In this document: in pieces, positions 40,225-50,815 of the stretch
Position numbering within the stretch: the first letter of the stretch is position 1
Layout of the letters: each line of letters begins with the position of its first letter
The notes under the pieces: generated by a model
What the model was told of the DNA's origin: nothing
The model's database searches: none
Seen by the model: only the letters and a program-made list of their open reading frames with translations
Program-made: the position numbers and the translations under genes
Source of the DNA: Methanosarcina barkeri 3
GTDB lineage: Archaea > Halobacteriota > Methanosarcinia > Methanosarcinales > Methanosarcinaceae
DNA length: 64,000 bases
Direction: 5' to 3'
Assembly (NCBI RefSeq): GCF_000970305.1
Contig: NZ_CP009517.1
Span: 2,728,001-2,792,000 of the forward strand

Positions 40225-40770
40225 TTACCGCCTGATGCTTACCAGTAATCTTTTTTTCGTTATGGGCACTAATTTTTTCCATTCTACTACGGCATCTTCG
40301 TGAAACTCATATTCGTCTACAGTCTTATCAGAAAACTTGCCATCTACTTCATATATATAAAATCCCTCTTCCCCATCCGTAGAGACGACCTTGACTCTGT
40401 TCCCCATTTTCTTAACTTCTACGGCAGCCACATTTTTCAGGGCTTCAAGCAGCGTCGTACCCTGTTCAACCTCAAGCCTCCTGTTTTCTGCAAAGTGGTC
40501 CAGAAAAGAATAGACATTGTTCAGTTTGATACCTATCATATGTGTATTTCCAAACTTTTTTCTTTCCACAAGTTCGGCTTTTTCCAATATTTTTATATGT
40601 CTGGCAGCTACAGGCACGGAAATTCCTATTTCTCTTGCCAGACCGGATATATGTTTATCTCCTTCACTCAGGTGTTCAAGAATTGAAAGGCGCGTATCGC
40701 TTGAAATCGCCTTGAAAAGGTTTTCTCTGCCACCATTCATTCCAGAACTCCGCACAACATTTACTACCAT
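40225..40770 (-). CDS. ArsR-type regulator with transcobalamin-like (DUF4430-like) C-terminus
   Basis: 181 residues from the ATG at 40770, or 171 from MNGGREN at 40740, which has GGAG in front. Residues about 18-90 form an ArsR-type winged helix (FKAISSDTRLSILEHLSEGDKHISGLAREIGISVPVAARHIKILEKAELV). The C-terminal part (about 110-181), GFYIYEVDGKFSDKTVDEYEF followed by VEWKKLVP, resembles the small beta domain DUF4430 of cobalamin-binding transcobalamin-like proteins; this match is by eye only. The gene faces away from the DUF2162-ExbB-DUF2149 operon and is its likely regulator. TATA-like TTATAA lies 26 bp before the upstream ATG, so transcription may start at or near it. Confidence 0.75.
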   Translation of the reverse strand: MVVNVVRSSGMNGGRENLFKAISSDTRLSILEHLSEGDKHISGLAREIGISVPVAARHIKILEKAELVERKKFGNTHMIGIKLNNVYSFLDHFAENRRLEVEQGTTLLEALKNVAAVEVKKMGNRVKVVSTDGEEGFYIYEVDGKFSDKTVDEYEFHEDAVVEWKKLVPITKKRLLVSIRR

Positions 40771-41223
40771 GATGAGCTCTATTTTATCTCAAATACTTAT
40801 AATTATTGCTTTATTCAGAACAAGTAAAGTAAACTATTAGATCTTTTCATTGCTTTTTTATTTTTTAGTTTTAACAAATTTACTTTAATTACAGGTTTTT
40901 GTTTTCTTCTGTTTCCAATCATTACCTGATAAATAGAATTAATTCTTGCATAATACTTGTTAAATTAGAAATTTATTTTATTATCGCTGTCAATTGATAT
41001 CGTTTTAAAAGAGTATTATTTTACTATCTTACTAATTTAACGTCTAAACATGCCCTGAATTTAACTCATTAAGTTATTTCTCCATCTCTAACAGAAAACG
41101 GGGTGGAAATAAATTTTTAGTCTAAAAAATGCACTCTGTGAGCCCTTGTTACCTTAAAAGATAACAAGTATTACCCAAAAGCCAGGGTTTATTTAATTCT
41201 ACTATAGATGCTCAGAAGGTAAT
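40771..41223. promoter_or_regulatory. Divergent control region of the ExbB/CobN-type locus
   Basis: A 453-bp AT-rich region between the ArsR gene and the DUF2162-like gene. It should contain both promoters and the operator of the ArsR protein. For the right gene TATTTAATTCTAC at about 41189-41201 may be the TATA box, giving a start close to the ATG at 41224. I could not find a convincing palindrome. Confidence 0.4.
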
Positions 41224-41916
41224 ATGGACTCTACTGCATTAACTGTTATTGGTATTTTGATAGGTATCCTTGTCTTTGGAATTAAATCTGGAATAGGATG
41301 TGGGTTTTCAAACATAAGTAAAAGAGAAATTTTTGCAATTGGAGGTAGTTATTTTCTCCTGGCTCTTTTATTCGGAAGTGTTGCTGATCACATAAGCCTT
41401 GAAGCCTTTGAGAAGTTTTCTTCAATGGGCATGGGAATCCATGTACTTGTTTCCCTGCTTCTCATAGTGACCGGAATTTACACCCAGAAAAAATGGAACT
41501 CAGGAAAAGATGTTTCCAGGCACACTTTTCTCGCTATATCCGTACCATGTCCAGTATGTATGGCAGCCCTTGCATTATCTTGCATGCTGCTTTCACAGAG
41601 CCTTAATCTTTCCGGAATAAAAGTCGGGCTCCTTGTAGGGGTTGCTTTTTTTATAGCAGTTGTGGCTTCTTCTTTTCTTTTCAGGTTTGGAAAGATTCGA
41701 CTTGGAAAGACTCCTGAAACTATGGGCAGTGCAATGATGCTGATAGGAATCTATTATCTATTAGGAGCTCTTCTTATCCCTGCATATATACAGACAAAAA
41801 AGATGAATCTTATTTCAACCGGAGGAGGAGAAACAGGAATAATACCTCTTATGGCTTTTGGAGTCATTGTCCTTGCAGGTTTTTTCCTGGACCGTATAAG
41901 GAGGCATGATCTATGA
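41224..41916 (+). CDS. Polytopic membrane protein, DUF2162-like
   Basis: 230 residues with about six to seven hydrophobic segments (about 5-25, 35-55, 75-92, 100-125, 135-155, 175-192, 207-225). The third region holds a cysteine pair in VPCPVCMAALALSCMLL, a possible metal or redox site inside the membrane. I place it in the DUF2162 group of putative transporters that accompany ExbB-like and DUF2149 genes in methanogens. The stop overlaps the ExbB-like start as ATGA, so the two are translationally coupled. Substrate is unknown; a role in moving a cofactor or metal is inferred from context. Confidence 0.72.
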   Translation: MDSTALTVIGILIGILVFGIKSGIGCGFSNISKREIFAIGGSYFLLALLFGSVADHISLEAFEKFSSMGMGIHVLVSLLLIVTGIYTQKKWNSGKDVSRHTFLAISVPCPVCMAALALSCMLLSQSLNLSGIKVGLLVGVAFFIAVVASSFLFRFGKIRLGKTPETMGSAMMLIGIYYLLGALLIPAYIQTKKMNLISTGGGETGIIPLMAFGVIVLAGFFLDRIRRHDL

Positions 41917-42536
41917 GCCTGATGAATTTATTATCCGACATGATGAATGTCTTCTCAACGGCTTTGCTAATTCCTGTGATGTTTCTTCTCACCATTCTCG
42001 TGTTTATTTCCTTAATTCAATTAGGAGAATTCCTTTCCGAGTATACAAAAAGACATAGGGACTGGAATAATCTGGAAACTAACTGCAAAAAAATTGAGCT
42101 CAATCTTCAGAATTCGGATTTTTCGGAAGCCTCCATAGCTCTTGAGAATATCAAACAAAATTATATGGTCACTTCTTTTGCACGAGACGCTGCGAAATAC
42201 CTGAAAGAGCGGCATTTTCCTGCAATTGAGAGGCTTTCGCAGGAATATGAAATCAAGATGGCAAAACGCCTTGAACATACAAAGATAACTTCAACTATCG
42301 GTCCCATGCTTGGCCTTATGGGGACGCTTATTCCGTTAGGCCCTGCTCTGATAGGGCTTTCGAAAGGAGACCTCGAGACCCTTGCACAAAACCTGATGAT
42401 TGCTTTTGCGACAACCGTTGTAGGGCTTTTTGCTGCCGGAATAGGCTATGTGCTTACACAGGTCAGACGGCGCTGGTACTGGGAAGATATGTCGGACATA
42501 GATTATATCCTGGATACCATTGAGGAAAAGAATTGA
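41913..42536 (+). CDS. MotA/TolQ/ExbB-type proton channel protein
   Basis: 207 residues. An N-terminal membrane helix (about 18-36), a cytoplasmic helical domain (about 40-125) and two closing helices (about 125-150 and 160-185) match the ExbB/TolQ layout. The signature TKITSTIGPMLGLMGTLIPLGPAL (about 124-147) and LMIAFATTVVGLFAAGIGYVLT (about 160-181) are characteristic of the proton-channel part. In bacteria such proteins use the proton gradient to drive TonB or Tol. Here it sits between a DUF2162-like protein and an ExbD-like DUF2149 protein, and no TonB is visible. It starts within the stop of the upstream gene. Confidence 0.92.
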   Translation: MSLMNLLSDMMNVFSTALLIPVMFLLTILVFISLIQLGEFLSEYTKRHRDWNNLETNCKKIELNLQNSDFSEASIALENIKQNYMVTSFARDAAKYLKERHFPAIERLSQEYEIKMAKRLEHTKITSTIGPMLGLMGTLIPLGPALIGLSKGDLETLAQNLMIAFATTVVGLFAAGIGYVLTQVRRRWYWEDMSDIDYILDTIEEKN

Positions 42537-42569: not shown

Positions 42570-43007
42570 ATGAGAAAGTCCAGAAGATACAGGCGGACAG
42601 GGCTTTTAAAAGATGAGGATGAGCAAAGCCCTATGATAAACGTTGCCAATGTTTTTGATGTTGCAATGGTCTTTTCTGTAGCTCTATTAGTTGCACTTGT
42701 TATGTCATATCACCTCCCAGAACTTCTGAGCTCCAATGAGGATTTTACCATTGTCAAAAATCCGGGAGCTCAGGATATGAAGATCGTCATCAAAGAAGAA
42801 GGTAAACCCATTGAAGTCATGAATATGACCGATAATATAGGAGGAGGAACCGGAGAAGCTCTTGGAACAGCTTACAGGCTCGCCGACGGCAAGGTAATTT
42901 ACGTACCTGATAATGGTACATCTTCAGGTACATCTTCAGGTACATCTTCTTCGTCAGGTACGTCTGCTCCAACTAAAGTAATTTCACTCAAATCTAACTC
43001 AGATTGA
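42570..43007 (+). CDS. ExbD-like DUF2149 protein
   Basis: 145 residues: a short basic N-terminus, one membrane helix (about 25-46) with an aspartate in NVFDVAMVFSVALLVALVM, and an outer domain ending in YRLADGKVIYVPDNG. The membrane aspartate corresponds in position to the proton-carrying Asp of ExbD/TolR (PLVDVMLVLLIF-type motif). The end is low complexity, with GTSS repeats coded by a 12-bp direct repeat (GGTACATCTTCA). It lies 33 bp behind the ExbB-like gene with GAGGAAG before the ATG. It is probably the stator partner of the ExbB-like channel. Confidence 0.85.
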   Translation: MRKSRRYRRTGLLKDEDEQSPMINVANVFDVAMVFSVALLVALVMSYHLPELLSSNEDFTIVKNPGAQDMKIVIKEEGKPIEVMNMTDNIGGGTGEALGTAYRLADGKVIYVPDNGTSSGTSSGTSSSSGTSAPTKVISLKSNSD

Positions 43008-43364: not shown

Positions 43365-43672
43365 ACCCTAAAAGCTAATAATTGTGAGCTAAACACTTTA
43401 TTTTATATATTATATCCATATATTCTAAGCGTTAAAAACATATTACAAAATCAGCCATTTATTAGCTTCAGAAATTTCCGGTTTTAAAATTAATATCCAG
43501 AATCTAGAATTTTCGATTTCACTTTTAAAACTTAATGGCTGTTTCCTGTAGGTTTTTGAGAAATTCCTAAATCAGAACTTTTAGACTGACAATAGTCTGG
43601 TGAGCTAGACATCCTGAATATTTTTTCACCTGGGATGTTCCGTGGTTCATTATCGATTATCTGGGGATAAAA
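43365..43672 (+). promoter_or_regulatory. Duplicated leader, copy A
   Basis: About 305 bp homologous to the region before cobN (46195-46504). Shared landmarks in the same order: TTTACCC...AGCTAATAAT, TTATTTTATATATT (TATA box, about 43398-43411), CGATTTCACTTTTAAAACTTAA, a small hairpin (43583-43598), TGAGC, a second hairpin (43609-43638) and CTGGGGATAAA before an ATG. The predicted start near 43432 gives a leader of about 240 nt. Both hairpins differ in sequence from copy B but still pair. Confidence 0.65.
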
Positions 43673-43783
43673 ATGCAAGAAAAACTTATAATGATAGCGG
43701 TTTTAGTTCTACTGGTATTGACATCATTATCAACTATTCTATACTGGTGGAATCTACCACTGGCTAAGAAAAAAATGTTTTGA
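43673..43783 (+). CDS. Small single-span membrane peptide (36 aa)
   Basis: A 36-residue frame starting MQEKLIMIAVLVLLVLTS and ending PLAKKKMF: a short basic start, one hydrophobic helix, and a Trp pair near its end. The ATG occupies the same place, behind CTGGGGATAAA, as the cobN start in the second copy of the leader. It is therefore either a real tiny membrane protein under the same control as cobN, or the remaining signal-peptide end of a lost cobN paralog. The two possibilities cannot be separated from one sequence. Confidence 0.45.
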   Translation: MQEKLIMIAVLVLLVLTSLSTILYWWNLPLAKKKMF

Positions 43784-44029: not shown

Positions 44030-44824
44030 ATGACAGCTCTGGGTATAGTTGGGTGTAGAGTATTTGAGGATGAAATTACCCATGTGCTTGCAAACGGTCC
44101 TGATATAGACAGGATCTACATCATAGAAAACGAAGAAAACGACGGCCTTCTATACAAGCTTGAATCCGAAGGATTTGAACCAGTTGTCCTGCCCTTTTAC
44201 AAAATAAAAACAGACCTGAAACGTAGTAATGAGTTCAGCATTATTGTTCAGCTTCAGGGAATGGGACTCCATATAGACCCTGCCCTGCTTAAAAGTAAAA
44301 CGTATACAAACGTTGACCTCATGTCCAGGCTTGTGGACGGAATTCTACTTTTTTACGGCTCCTGCGGACAGGCATTTTCCAGGATACAAAGAGATTTTGC
44401 TCATAAGGGATGCCCTATAAAGCCACTTCAGGACAGGAGCACAGGCGAATCAATCAAACCCGTTGAAGACTGCATTGCAGCAGCTCTCGGAGGCAACTCT
44501 AATTATCGGAAAATCCTGAAAAATCACAGTGACACCTTTTTCTTAACTCCTATGTGGGCTGTAAACTGGAAGACTGTCTTCAGAGTTGGCGATAAACCGC
44601 CTCTGGGTTTTGAATTCACTCCTGAATATATGAGAGAACTCGGTTACCGAAAAGTTGCCGGAATTAACACGAAACTATCCTATGAATCTGATTTTGAGAA
44701 AAAAATTGAAGAATTTGCACATAACTTCGGTTTCGAGATCATAGAACTGGAAGGAAGCACTGAAATAGTGAAAAAATCGTATAACCAGATGCGAACCATG
44801 CTTCGCAGGCCACTTAAAGTCTAA
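44030..44824 (+). CDS. DUF1638 domain protein
   Basis: 264 residues, soluble. The family stretch begins ALGIVGCRVFEDEITHVL and includes LLFYGSCGQAFSRIQ, PLQDRSTGESIKPVEDCIAAALGG and FLTPMWAVNWKTVF. Cys10 and the cysteine in YGSCGQ, together with the one at GCPIKPLQD, are candidate ligand residues. DUF1638 proteins occur in methanogens near methyltransferase and corrinoid genes; a link to corrinoid metabolism is family context plus the neighbouring cobN-like gene. The reaction is unknown. It lacks a ribosome binding site and may be translated from a leaderless message. Confidence 0.85.
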   Translation: MTALGIVGCRVFEDEITHVLANGPDIDRIYIIENEENDGLLYKLESEGFEPVVLPFYKIKTDLKRSNEFSIIVQLQGMGLHIDPALLKSKTYTNVDLMSRLVDGILLFYGSCGQAFSRIQRDFAHKGCPIKPLQDRSTGESIKPVEDCIAAALGGNSNYRKILKNHSDTFFLTPMWAVNWKTVFRVGDKPPLGFEFTPEYMRELGYRKVAGINTKLSYESDFEKKIEEFAHNFGFEIIELEGSTEIVKKSYNQMRTMLRRPLKV

Positions 44825-46194: not shown

Positions 46195-46504
46195 ATTGAC
46201 CTTTTTACCCAAATAGCTAATAATCGTAATCCAAAAACCTCATTTTATATATTTTATTTCTTAATGCTCCAAATGTTAAATCTGTAATACAGAATCGGCT
46301 GCCCATTAATTTTTGGAAGTTCTTGACTTGAATTGTAAGCAAAATCGAAAGCATCCAATTTCACTTTTAGAACTTAACGACTGTTCCGAACAAGTTTCTA
46401 AAATTCGCAAAATTTTAACATAAAATCAACCAGTGAGCAAAGCATTCCGGTTATCTTTCTTCCGGGGTGCTCTACGGTTCATGAGACATTATTCTGGGGA
46501 TAAA
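46195..46504 (+). promoter_or_regulatory. cobN promoter and structured leader (copy B)
   Basis: Homologous to copy A at 43365-43672. TATA box CATTTTATATATTTTA at about 46241-46256; predicted start near 46275, giving a leader of about 230 nt. Late in the leader are two hairpins: ATTTTA-ACA-TAAAAT (46412-46426) and AGCATTCCGG paired with CCGGGGTGCT (46441-46450 with 46462-46471, two G-U pairs). CTGGGGATAAA then leads into the ATG. The arrangement looks like a regulatory RNA. I found no match to the conserved core of cobalamin riboswitches. Confidence 0.65.
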
Positions 46505-49500
46505 ATGCGTACGGCACAAAGTAGATTATTGGTATTATGTGCAGTAATCCTTTTAATGCTAGCACAGAATGTATCGGCTGATGAAAACCATGTGAATATT
46601 ACTTTTATCTGTTATGATGGAAGTGCTCTTGCGACAGCAGAGCAGTCCAATCCATACAACTCAAGTATTAATGTAACGTATATTTCTGGGTATTCTGATT
46701 TTAGCAATGTTACTTTTGAAAACCAGGATGTAATATTCACTTATATGCTCTGGTCTCAGTTCAAAGATATCGGGGACGATCTCGAAAGTGCCCACAAAAA
46801 CGGGACTGCACTTATAGATATTTCTTCTGCAATAGATACAACATATATCAACACTTCAAGTTATGATCATATTTTTACCGGGACCAAACCATACAATTCT
46901 ACAGAAGAGAAATTCTTCTACAATATGGGCTCCAGAGGAATCCTGAAGAAAAACACTGAAAATTTCATTACATATCTAGCAAAAACATATGGAGATAAAC
47001 CTGAACTTACGAAAAACTGGGTTTATGAAGACCCTGTAGAATTCCCCGAAGCAGCAATTTACCATCCGGATGCCCGTTCTTCAACTAACGAATCTCAACC
47101 CGACTGGTTTGAAAACACAACTGACTACCTTGAATGGTACTCTAACTCAACTAACTCAAATGAATCACGACATATTTACGACAAAAGCAAGCCAACTATA
47201 GGGATATGGTTCCATGCTTCGGATTATACAGGTGACAACCTTGAGGTCATAGATGCACTCATCCGTGATCTGGAAGGAAAAGGCTGCAACGTAATTGCAG
47301 GTTTTGATACTTTCAATGATATTCATAAGTTTTACTTTGATGAGAATGGAGAGCCTCTTGTCCAGTGCGTAATTTCTCTTAAAAGCTTCCGTTTGAATTA
47401 TGATGATCCTGATAAAGGTGTACAGGAGCTTAAAGACCTTGATGTTCCCGTGCTTACCGGACTGGTTGTTACAAATCCTGCAAACTCTACCGACATAGCT
47501 GACGGTAATAGAGGTATCCCAAGTGAGGAGGTTGTATACAAGACTCTACTTCCGAGCATTGATGGAATTTTCGAGTATATTGTTGTCGGAATTGATAATT
47601 ACGATTCCGAAATCGGTGAAAGCAACTATGAACCTCTTCCCTCCCAGATTGACTGGATGGCAAACAGGTCAATTAACTGGGCGAACCTGAAGTTAGAGAA
47701 TAATAAGGATAAGAAAGTCGCTGTCATCTATTACAATTACCCTTCAGGGAAAGACAACATCGTAGCAAATTATCTTAATTCCACCCAGAGCATGTTTGAA
47801 CTCCTCAATGCAATGAATAAAAGTGGCTATGAGGTCTCCGGAATTCCGGAAAACAGCAGTAAGCTCATGGAAATGCTTCAGGCACAGGGTATAAACGTAG
47901 GTTCCTGGGCTCCCGGTGTTCTGAATGGAATGGTAGAAAACAGGACTGAGTGGGGACTGCAACTCATACCTATGGATACCTATAAAGAATGGTTTGAATC
48001 CGAAATTCCGGAAAATCTGAGATCCAATGTAACCTCTGAATGGGGAGAACCCTGGTCCGAAGACCTGCCTCAAAATAAGAGTGTTATGATCTATGAAAAT
48101 GAAACCGGAAAATATATTGTAATTCCTACGGTACGCTTCGGAAATGTCTGGCTCATGCCCCAGCCTGCCAGAGGAACAGGACAAAACAATGACACTCTTT
48201 ACCACAGCAACGTTGTACCTCCCACACACCAGTACATAGCTTTCTATCTCTGGCTACACCACGAGTTCCAGCCTGATGCACTTATTAATATGGGTACTCA
48301 CGGTACGCACGAGTGGCTTCCGGGTTCTACTTACGGCATGAACCGGACTTCAGACTGGTCTCCTCTCTTGTTGCAGGATACTCCGAATATCTATCCTTAC
48401 ATCGTTGCCAACGTGGGAGAAGGAATAACTGCGGAGTACAGGGGTAATGCCCTGATTATTGACCATCTGACTCCAACCCTTGAGCGTGGTGGGCTTTATG
48501 GAGATTTGCAAAACCTTTCAACTAATGTGGAAGGGTATTATGATCCAGGAATTTCTTCTCAGACAAAAGCAGGATACCAAAAAGCCATAGTAAACGAAAT
48601 AATAGCACTCAACCTAAGTGTTGATCTGGGAATAGATAACGTAACTACTCTTCAAAATTATAATGAAACAGAGTTTGGGAATTTTGTTAAAAATTCACTT
48701 CATGAGTATTTGGAAGATATAGGAAATGAAAATATCCCATACGGTATGCATATTCTCAGCCATGTTCCTACGACAAATAAGACAGATCCTGAAAGTGACG
48801 AACTTACCGGAATGGTAAGAGCTATGCTTGGAGGAAATTTTGAGGAAAATGTCACTGCTGCCTTCTATCCTGAATCTGCTTATCCTCTCGGAATTCCACT
48901 GAATGATACAAAAGTTACTAAACTTGTCTGGGAGGTCGTAACCAATAATACAAGCATTTCCAAGGCGCAAACTGCAGTTTATGGGAAAACTAACAGTACA
49001 GTTACACTTGATCTTGAACAGGGGCTGGATTATAAGAACAGGCTTCTTAACTGCGACGTGGAGATTGACAGAATTCTTTCAGCCCTGAGTGGAGGCTTTA
49101 TCCCACCAGGTTCGGGACTGGACCCAATTATGAACCCTGATGCAGTACCTACAGGGCGCAACTATTACAGCATAAACTCGAAGCTTTATCCTTCAGAGGC
49201 AACATGGGAAGTAGGTAAATCTCTTGCAGTCCAGTTGATTGAGGATTACTATAAAGAACATGGGGAATATCCTAAAAAAGTTTCATTTTCAAGATTCGGG
49301 GTGGAGTTCATTGCGGATCACGGGACTCTGGAAGCTGAAGTGCTTTATCTGCTCGGAGTAAAACCTGTCTGGGATGAGAACGGATATGTAACCGGAGTTG
49401 AAGCTATCCCTGAAGAAGAACTATTGCCAAATTATGATACTTCAAAGCCTGGGAGACCACGTATTGATGTTGTCTACTCAACAGCAGGAATGAGGGATGC

Positions 49501-50815
49501 TTTCCCGGATAAGATCAAAATGATAGACAGTGCCGTGAAACTTGCAAGTTCTCTTCCTGGCGTAAACTATCCCAACTACGTTAATCAAAGTTCCCTTACA
49601 CTCTATGACTCTCTGATTGCTGCAGGGTATGACAACGAGACTGCAACAAAACTCTCTACAATGCGCTGTTTTGCAGTAATGGACGGTACTTATGAGATAG
49701 GGGTCTCAGACGCTATCAGTGCAAGCGGGACATGGGAGAATGAAGAAGCTATTGCGAACGTATACCTGAACAAGATGGGATACGCTTACGGAGAAGATTT
49801 CTGGGGCATCCAGTGCAGACAACTCCTTGAGGGAAACCTCAAAAGCGTTGAAGCATCAGTACATTCGTCTTCTTCAAACCTTTACGACTCCCTTGACAAC
49901 GATGACCTTTTCCAGTACTTCGGCGGCATGAACCTGGCAACGAGGTATCTTAGCGGCAAGACTCCGGAGATGTATATTTCGGACACAAGTGACCTGGACA
50001 GAGCTCAGATGGTGGGAATGCAAGAGTACCTCAGCAAGGATCTGCGAGCCAGATATTTCAATGACAAATGGATAGAAGGAATGCAGAACTCCGGATATTC
50101 AGGCGGCAGCATGATGTCCGATTTTGTGAACAACCTTTTCGGCTGGGAGGTAAGTGATCCTGAACTTGTGGACGATACTGTCTGGCAAGATGTGTATGAA
50201 ACATATGTAAATGATCCTTCTATGAAAGAATGGTTCAAGAAGAATAACCCTAATGCTTACCAATCCGTGACAGCGAGAATGCTTGAGGCAGTCAGGCACG
50301 ACTACTGGAAACCTTCAGAGGATGTTGTCGAAAATCTTGCAAAGGAATATGAAGAATCCGTGGCAGAGAATGGAGTTTCGTGCTGTCACCATACCTGTGG
50401 AAATCCCCTGCTTCATGAGTTCGTAAGTGGAACAGTATCTGTTCCAGGCTACGCTGAGCAAATAGAAACTGCAACTAAAGCTAAAAATCTGGAGACTACA
50501 GAGGAGACCCAGAGCAGTAGTGGTAGTCATCATGACCATAATACCGGAAATGCTACCGTAGTACCGAAAACCAGCTCATCCAGCAACCAGACGTCTCAGG
50601 ATTCAAGTGGAGGATATGGTACAGATACTTCCAAACCTGAACCTGAAGTCAAGAAATCCGCAGATACTGATTATGTTGAAGGGTATGAGATGCAGAAGGA
50701 TTCTGCCGAAAAACCTGAGAATAATGGGGTCTCATTTTCAGGCTCCGATATCTTCGGAATTCTCTTTGTGGTGGTAGCCGCCGGTGGAATTTACCTGGGT
50801 ATTCGGAAGAAATAA
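46505..50815 (+). CDS. Secreted, membrane-anchored CobN-like chelatase subunit
   Basis: 1436 residues from the ATG at 46505, chosen because a signal peptide follows at once (RTAQSRLLVLCAVILLMLAQNVSA) and the frame upstream is part of the leader. The body is homologous to CobN/BchH, the large tetrapyrrole-binding subunit of metal chelatases: YLWLHHEFQPDALINMGTHGTHEWLPG (about residue 580-607), PYIVANVGEGITAEYRGNALIIDHLTPTL, and CCHHTCGNPLLHEFVSG near 1292. A linker with SGSHHDHN and many Ser/Thr leads to a C-terminal membrane helix (about 1409-1433) and RKK. So the chelatase-like body lies outside the cell, away from ATP and from CobS/CobT-type partners. Binding and delivery of corrinoids, other tetrapyrroles or cobalt is a better guess than metal insertion. 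It ends in a strong terminator. Confidence 0.88.
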   Translation: MRTAQSRLLVLCAVILLMLAQNVSADENHVNITFICYDGSALATAEQSNPYNSSINVTYISGYSDFSNVTFENQDVIFTYMLWSQFKDIGDDLESAHKNGTALIDISSAIDTTYINTSSYDHIFTGTKPYNSTEEKFFYNMGSRGILKKNTENFITYLAKTYGDKPELTKNWVYEDPVEFPEAAIYHPDARSSTNESQPDWFENTTDYLEWYSNSTNSNESRHIYDKSKPTIGIWFHASDYTGDNLEVIDALIRDLEGKGCNVIAGFDTFNDIHKFYFDENGEPLVQCVISLKSFRLNYDDPDKGVQELKDLDVPVLTGLVVTNPANSTDIADGNRGIPSEEVVYKTLLPSIDGIFEYIVVGIDNYDSEIGESNYEPLPSQIDWMANRSINWANLKLENNKDKKVAVIYYNYPSGKDNIVANYLNSTQSMFELLNAMNKSGYEVSGIPENSSKLMEMLQAQGINVGSWAPGVLNGMVENRTEWGLQLIPMDTYKEWFESEIPENLRSNVTSEWGEPWSEDLPQNKSVMIYENETGKYIVIPTVRFGNVWLMPQPARGTGQNNDTLYHSNVVPPTHQYIAFYLWLHHEFQPDALINMGTHGTHEWLPGSTYGMNRTSDWSPLLLQDTPNIYPYIVANVGEGITAEYRGNALIIDHLTPTLERGGLYGDLQNLSTNVEGYYDPGISSQTKAGYQKAIVNEIIALNLSVDLGIDNVTTLQNYNETEFGNFVKNSLHEYLEDIGNENIPYGMHILSHVPTTNKTDPESDELTGMVRAMLGGNFEENVTAAFYPESAYPLGIPLNDTKVTKLVWEVVTNNTSISKAQTAVYGKTNSTVTLDLEQGLDYKNRLLNCDVEIDRILSALSGGFIPPGSGLDPIMNPDAVPTGRNYYSINSKLYPSEATWEVGKSLAVQLIEDYYKEHGEYPKKVSFSRFGVEFIADHGTLEAEVLYLLGVKPVWDENGYVTGVEAIPEEELLPNYDTSKPGRPRIDVVYSTAGMRDAFPDKIKMIDSAVKLASSLPGVNYPNYVNQSSLTLYDSLIAAGYDNETATKLSTMRCFAVMDGTYEIGVSDAISASGTWENEEAIANVYLNKMGYAYGEDFWGIQCRQLLEGNLKSVEASVHSSSSNLYDSLDNDDLFQYFGGMNLATRYLSGKTPEMYISDTSDLDRAQMVGMQEYLSKDLRARYFNDKWIEGMQNSGYSGGSMMSDFVNNLFGWEVSDPELVDDTVWQDVYETYVNDPSMKEWFKKNNPNAYQSVTARMLEAVRHDYWKPSEDVVENLAKEYEESVAENGVSCCHHTCGNPLLHEFVSGTVSVPGYAEQIETATKAKNLETTEETQSSSGSHHDHNTGNATVVPKTSSSSNQTSQDSSGGYGTDTSKPEPEVKKSADTDYVEGYEMQKDSAEKPENNGVSFSGSDIFGILFVVVAAGGIYLGIRKK

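Follow-up and report, generated by a model that had tools for sequence, protein, structure and literature searches.

The stretch of Methanosarcina barkeri 3 DNA analysed here (NZ_CP009517.1, positions 2,728,001 to 2,792,000; 64,000 nucleotides, hereinafter the window) encodes a large CobN/ChlH-type protein, P0001, for which we propose on balance a role as S subunit in a complex at the archaeal cell surface. The complex would salvage corrinoids, their cobalt or both, with ion-motive force probably taking the place of CobST and ATP; such collecting or stripping of B12-type compounds from the surroundings would resemble the way in which gut bacteria handle heme. At the sequence level, this proposal draws support from the membership of S in an extracytoplasmic branch of CobN-like proteins, its association with a three-gene membrane module, T-U-V, an operator common to the two, and a corrinoid- and cobalt-related gene context (Table 1). 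The case appears strong for the predicted export and topology of S, and fair both for a corrinoid or cobalt cargo and for coupling to a U-V motor.

The first-pass annotation had described P0001 as having a signal-like N-terminus, a CobN-type body and a terminal membrane helix, and the open reading frame call, domain match and hydropathy bear this out. The PF02514 (CobN-Mg_chel) profile aligns along its full length (positions 9-1088 of 1090) to residues 148-1273 with 1022 bits, placing the protein in the CobN/ChlH superfamily; an in-frame GTG at 46433 would be an alternative start adding 24 residues. The N-terminus (MRTAQSRLLVLCAVILLMLAQNVSA/DE) is Sec-like with a hydrophobic 19-mer peak of 2.02, and the C-terminus presents a single helix (peak 2.16) followed by a basic tail, with all other stretches at or below 1.25. 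A signal-like N-terminus and a C-terminal anchor are found in 25/25 relatives from the archaeal S clade as against none of the ten cytosolic archaeal CobNs. P0001 further contains 37 N-x-S/T sequons where 16.1 are expected, the median observed-to-expected ratio being 2.3 across the clade versus 0.33 in the cytosolic archaeal CobNs (Mann-Whitney p 5e-6). By hydropathy and sequon counts, the body of S very probably faces outside, where CobST and cytosolic ATP would be out of reach, as had been supposed earlier; S is also probably glycosylated.

Among solved structures, P0001 is closest to the Bacteroides periplasmic heme de-chelatase HmuS (E 3.6e-140), with CobN and ChlH ranking lower, and it scores under all the NCBIfam CobN and ChlH equivalog cut-offs. 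A quick tree of 58 sequences, including 25 archaeal S, 3 bacterial B12-type S and 14 HmuS proteins and evaluated by the Shimodaira-Hasegawa-like approximate likelihood ratio test (SH-aLRT) without bootstrap, unites these three groups, along with one long-branch Cupriavidus protein, on a branch with support of 100, as against the cytosolic archaeal and bacterial CobNs. Each group also lies on one side of its own branch (98, 100 and 100, respectively), with P0001 falling within archaeal S. By its place in this tree, P0001 is an inherited member of the extracytoplasmic CobN-like branch. Both this position and the predicted export set it apart from the CobN cobaltochelatases, which are cytosolic and work with a CobST-type ATPase, and no gene for such an ATPase was found among the inspected neighbours of S. 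Its predicted export, DNDD/HSRSSN motif and DUF2162-ExbB-DUF2149 partners are those of a BtuS-type protein. The genome encodes three full-length PF02514 proteins: P0001, another exported protein (L005) and a cytosolic CobN beside an ECF-type (energy-coupling factor) transporter. Within L004:4488-17058, the cytosolic CobN gene lies between beta-propeller-like lipoproteins and this transporter; it has no obvious CobS/ChlI partner, and its motif reads CCC where the cleft Asp would be.

Scoring the active-site positions of S against those of HmuS (PMC12583661), we found that P0001 retains the counterpart of H538 (His599) but has Asp for H1209 and Gln for E1212 and therefore no bis-His cleft; at the heme site, M79 is replaced by Leu and H254 by Ser, and the Met-rich insertion is absent. 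P0001 is therefore HmuS-like in its build but does not class as an HmuS by these residues. The Asn at HmuS position 1200 is present in 24/25 archaeal S, 3/3 bacterial B12-type S and 14/14 HmuS proteins as against 0/16 members of the two CobN groups; archaeal S (23/25) and the B12-type bacterial S (3/3) are set apart by a His at position 1195. The catalytic His and Asp are retained in 23 of the 25 archaeal S. The first-pass annotation had singled out a His-rich linker, SGSHHDHN, which does exist in P0001 without being conserved. Cys/His conservation lies instead in a CCHHTC motif, invariant in all 25 archaeal S and missing from both cytosolic CobN and HmuS. P0001 itself has Asn595 (48287-48289) at the first position of HFGTHG, where the orthologues in Methanosarcina and almost every relative have His; this could be an altered site or a species-specific change. 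Three exported S paralogues (L099:3235-7965, L103:788-5551 and L088:6188-10000) no longer have the catalytic His or the DNDD motif (AIFSIFS..., EHPMVAAYFGG); they look like pseudo-enzymes and are perhaps pure binding subunits. Those of L099 and L103 still follow T-U-V.

The T-U-V module lies 3.5 kb upstream of S in the window. Across 247 genomes of the phylum, DUF2162 (T) is found upstream and on the same strand of 71 of the 78 well-matched DUF2149 (V) genes, the two being separated by a median of about 700 bp, which is the length of the ExbB gene (U). In most of the fetched loci an exported S gene directly follows V, and the order T-U-V-S recurs across Halobacteriota; in one congener (L070), the P0001 orthologue (87%) is the very next gene after V. 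The archaeal U and V profiles recover HmuU and HmuV in Bacteroidota loci (77 and 76 hits, E to 4e-59 and 1e-42). A homology between DUF2162 and HmuT was considered and rejected, as profile comparison shows no relation, and no DUF2162 was found above cut-off among 296 Bacteroidota genomes. The Asp in the membrane helix of V is invariant (59/59 sequences), and ExbD-type proton carriers likewise have a membrane-helix Asp. U and V hence pair an ExbB-family channel with a single-span partner bearing a membrane Asp, the make-up of an ExbB/ExbD-type motor with predicted ion conduction. Accordingly, the earlier picture of a lone, displaced chelatase subunit deprived of a partner gives way to an inherited extracytoplasmic branch with a conserved neighbouring module, whose ion-motive force could replace ATP for S.

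A palindromic operator (for example GCTAATAATTATTAGC or GGTAACnnnnGTTACC) sits immediately 5' of a TATA-like box, both at the T operon and at most S genes of Methanosarcina. Its strict pattern occurs five times in the 4.56-Mb genome as against no occurrence of the reversed control pattern: before T, before P0001, at a locus with an S-head gene and CbiM, and at two sites with no evident link. The operator being common to T-U-V and S, co-regulation is probable despite their separation in the window. Within the intervening gap, a diverged S leader at about 43.36-43.78 kb points to the probable loss of a first S gene; a tblastn search of 43.0-46.4 kb for a coding S remnant returned only leader-like DNA and a short signal-like reading frame. 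The candidate regulator is an ArsR-type protein whose DUF4430-like matches extend over the full length of the domain in all nine orthologues, though below threshold; DUF4430 is found at the C-terminus of transcobalamin (PMC4350170). Its AlphaFold model was unusable, with a predicted local distance difference test (pLDDT) score of 42. No Rfam element, riboswitches included, was found in the window.

The wider gene context narrows the cargo to corrinoids or cobalt, giving direction to the suggestion of the first-pass annotation that S might have become a tetrapyrrole or metal receptor, which pointed the right way while leaving the ligand unspecified. Archaeal S operons extend into CbiM-CbiQ-CbiO (L084; CbiM in L102 too), CobB/CbiA and CbiP (L083), and CbiT-CbiL-CbiF (L079). 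In one congener (L069), a secreted B12-binding protein (PF02310) is encoded between two S genes; its orthologue in M. barkeri 3 is encoded close to the third strong operator site, a site with CbiM on one side and a truncated S-head gene on the other. The locus G000:C1:2018229-2021817 (L267:6230-9818) encodes, in this order, a secreted 191-residue protein that resembles the S head domain only, a beta-helix protein of NosD type and a B12-binding protein, also secreted. These genes diverge from CbiM; in L069 the set sits inside the T-U-V-S cluster. On a plasmid of Trichlorobacter lovleyi, a TonB receptor gene followed by DUF2162-ExbB-DUF2149-S is preceded by two cobalamin riboswitches and neighbours bzaF and cobT; its S carries the archaeal S motif, and a corrinoid role for the locus was suspected earlier (PMC3403914). 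The other two bacterial S genes with the archaeal motif (L224 and L255, mutually related) each follow a cobalamin riboswitch. This amounts to an enrichment over HmuS-type loci (Fisher p 0.009, or 0.037 if two lineages are counted) in a survey that did not reach into the Desulfobacterota. We rejected the stricter rule that the riboswitch occurs only with the DNDD motif, four HmuS-type loci also having one. Four Bacteroidales S proteins (L257, L258, L259 and L261) have intact HmuS-type heme motifs and yet are encoded under cobalamin riboswitches, so that the HmuS motif alone is no proof of a heme substrate.

Table 1. Features of the S gene and its surroundings in the window.
Feature	Coordinates	Strand	Basis or remark
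S (P0001), CobN/ChlH-type, predicted to be exported and membrane-anchored, 1436 residues	46505..50815	+	Open reading frame, PF02514, structure match, tree, hydropathy
Predicted Sec signal peptide of S, residues 1-25	46505..46579	+	Hydropathy and AxA-like end
His599, counterpart of HmuS His538 (GTHGTHEWLPG)	48299..48301	+	Alignment
HSSSSNLYDSLDNDDLFQ motif, with Asp1134 and Gln1137 aligned to His1209 and Glu1212 of HmuS	49862..49915	+	Alignment
CCHHTC motif, residues 1293-1298, putative metal site	50381..50398	+	Conserved in 25/25 archaeal S; function inferred
SGSHHDHN linker	50519..50542	+	Real in P0001; not conserved across the clade
C-terminal membrane helix of S	50741..50800	+	Hydropathy
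T, DUF2162 membrane protein, invariant PCPxC	41224..41916	+	In the place of HmuT, without homology to it
U, MotA/TolQ/ExbB-family ion channel (PF01618)	41913..42536	+	HmuU homologue
V, DUF2149, single span, invariant Asp30	42570..43007	+	HmuV homologue
Palindromic operator before T-U-V	41159..41180	+	
Palindromic operator before S	46215..46236	+	
Diverged operator and TATA-region copy in the V-S gap	43365..43411	+	S-leader-like; signal-like short reading frame at 43673-43783
DUF1638 protein between V and S, membership uncertain	44030..44824	+	Next to S in L069 and L073 too; a possible member of the corrinoid cluster
ArsR-type regulator, divergent, DUF4430-like domain below threshold	40225..40770	-	Candidate for T-U-V and S; operator link inferred

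Three known systems frame this one. The hmuYRSTUV system of Bacteroidota (PDB 9d26; PMC12583661) shares with it an exported, anchored protein of CobN-like fold with His538, Ser1199 and Asn1200 in common, an ExbB-type U and a DUF2149 V. However, besides the differences in S residues set out above, including the archaeal CCHHTC, the archaeal loci have DUF2162 and not HmuT as T, lack HmuY and an outer-membrane receptor, follow the order T-U-V-S rather than S-T-U-V, and lie among corrinoid and cobalt rather than heme genes. The BtuS family and the corrinoid-linked CobN operon of T. lovleyi plasmid pSZ77 (PMC6460266, PMC3403914) share the DUF2162-ExbB-DUF2149-S order, the DNDD and HSRSSN motif, CC(H/D)HTC, and export with an anchor; the bacterial operon has additional TonB-dependent receptors and cobalamin riboswitches, whereas the archaeal S is longer, sequon-rich and in a clade of its own. 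CobN of the aerobic cobaltochelatase CobNST (PDB 7c6o, 9uk9) resembles P0001 in its fold, the His of HG..EWLPG, and Asp and Gln at the H1209/E1212 positions, but is cytosolic, driven by ATP via CobST and devoid of the signal peptide, anchor, sequon enrichment and CCHHTC.

We advance the following mechanism. S would be exported, probably glycosylated and held by its C-terminal helix. Its CobN-type cleft might take up an external corrinoid or other cobalt tetrapyrrole close to His599 and DNDD..Q. S would be driven by the ExbB-like U together with V and its membrane Asp, which would tap the ion gradient across the membrane and stand in for the ATP-driven CobST/ChlID of the cytosolic relatives. 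By way of the CCHHTC region, the product, either cobalt or corrinoid, might then reach T, the cobalt importer CbiMQO or both. In its boldest form, an external chelatase-type enzyme, with the U-V motor replacing an AAA+ ATPase, would strip cobalt from corrinoids and feed it to DUF2162 or CbiMQO, a scenario that we regard as rather unlikely when taken whole.

The most serious competitor, a substantial if lesser possibility, is that S is a surface corrinoid receptor devoid of metal chemistry, which captures intact cobamides or their precursors while T-U-V just moves them across the membrane. The associated TonB receptors, cobalamin riboswitches and secreted B12-binding protein would fit this, the bond between cobalt and corrin is chemically inert, and the T-U-V-linked S of L099 and L103 keep their place in the operon without the catalytic His; against it, the catalytic His and Asp persist in nearly all archaeal S, and the conserved CCHHTC and the CbiM neighbours suggest the handling of free metal. 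As corrins bind cobalt very tightly, we lean only slightly towards cobalt removal over capture alone. That S might be an archaeal HmuS-like de-chelatase that releases the iron of heme, external or recycled, and U-V act as HmuU-HmuV, seems improbable: HmuS is indeed the nearest solved relative, U and V are common to the hmu operon, His538 is retained, and the BtuS proteins of M. barkeri vary with the iron and sulfur source (PMC10846266), but H254, H1209, E1212 and the Met-rich insertion are all missing, there is no HmuT, the archaeal operons hold cobalt and corrin genes rather than heme genes, and the archaeal S clade is separate from HmuS. A cytosolic cobaltochelatase subunit with a mistaken export prediction is hardly credible; although databases annotate S as CobN and its PF02514 score is high, the signal peptide, anchor and sequon enrichment are conserved clade-wide, the score lies below each equivalog cut-off, and the genome has a separate cytosolic CobN.

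Several observations weigh against the salvage complex that we favour. The tight hold of corrins on cobalt speaks against de-metallation. The window has no corrinoid gene and no cbi gene next to S, the context coming from relatives and another locus of the same genome, and a DUF1638 gene and non-coding DNA part V from S. Cobalamin riboswitches also precede 4/27 HmuS-type loci, so the link between riboswitch and archaeal motif is enriched and not exclusive, and motif class and cargo do not correspond one-to-one. The AlphaFold model of DUF2162 (pLDDT 84) has no Foldseek match in the PDB at E <= 0.001. Finally, the published discussion of the two BtuS proteins of M. barkeri relates them to iron (PMC10846266).

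HmuS, BtuS and the T. lovleyi locus have been described before, the function of the archaeal relatives has been called unclear (PMC12583661), and M. barkeri proteomics reported two BtuS proteins whose operon was lacking (PMC10846266). A search of open-licence papers turned up no mention of the T-U-V partnership in archaea, of the operator, of the CCHHTC motif or of the cbi-gene context. The U-V partners, the replacement by DUF2162, the common operator and the cbi neighbours offer a testable answer on the role of archaeal S, and were cobalt removal to prove true, S would provide the first biological decobaltation of a corrin. A salvage role at the surface would also make sense of a family whose members are widely misannotated. 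Because methanogenesis from methyl compounds depends centrally on cobamides, such a surface salvage route would matter for the nutrition of methanogens and for cross-feeding.

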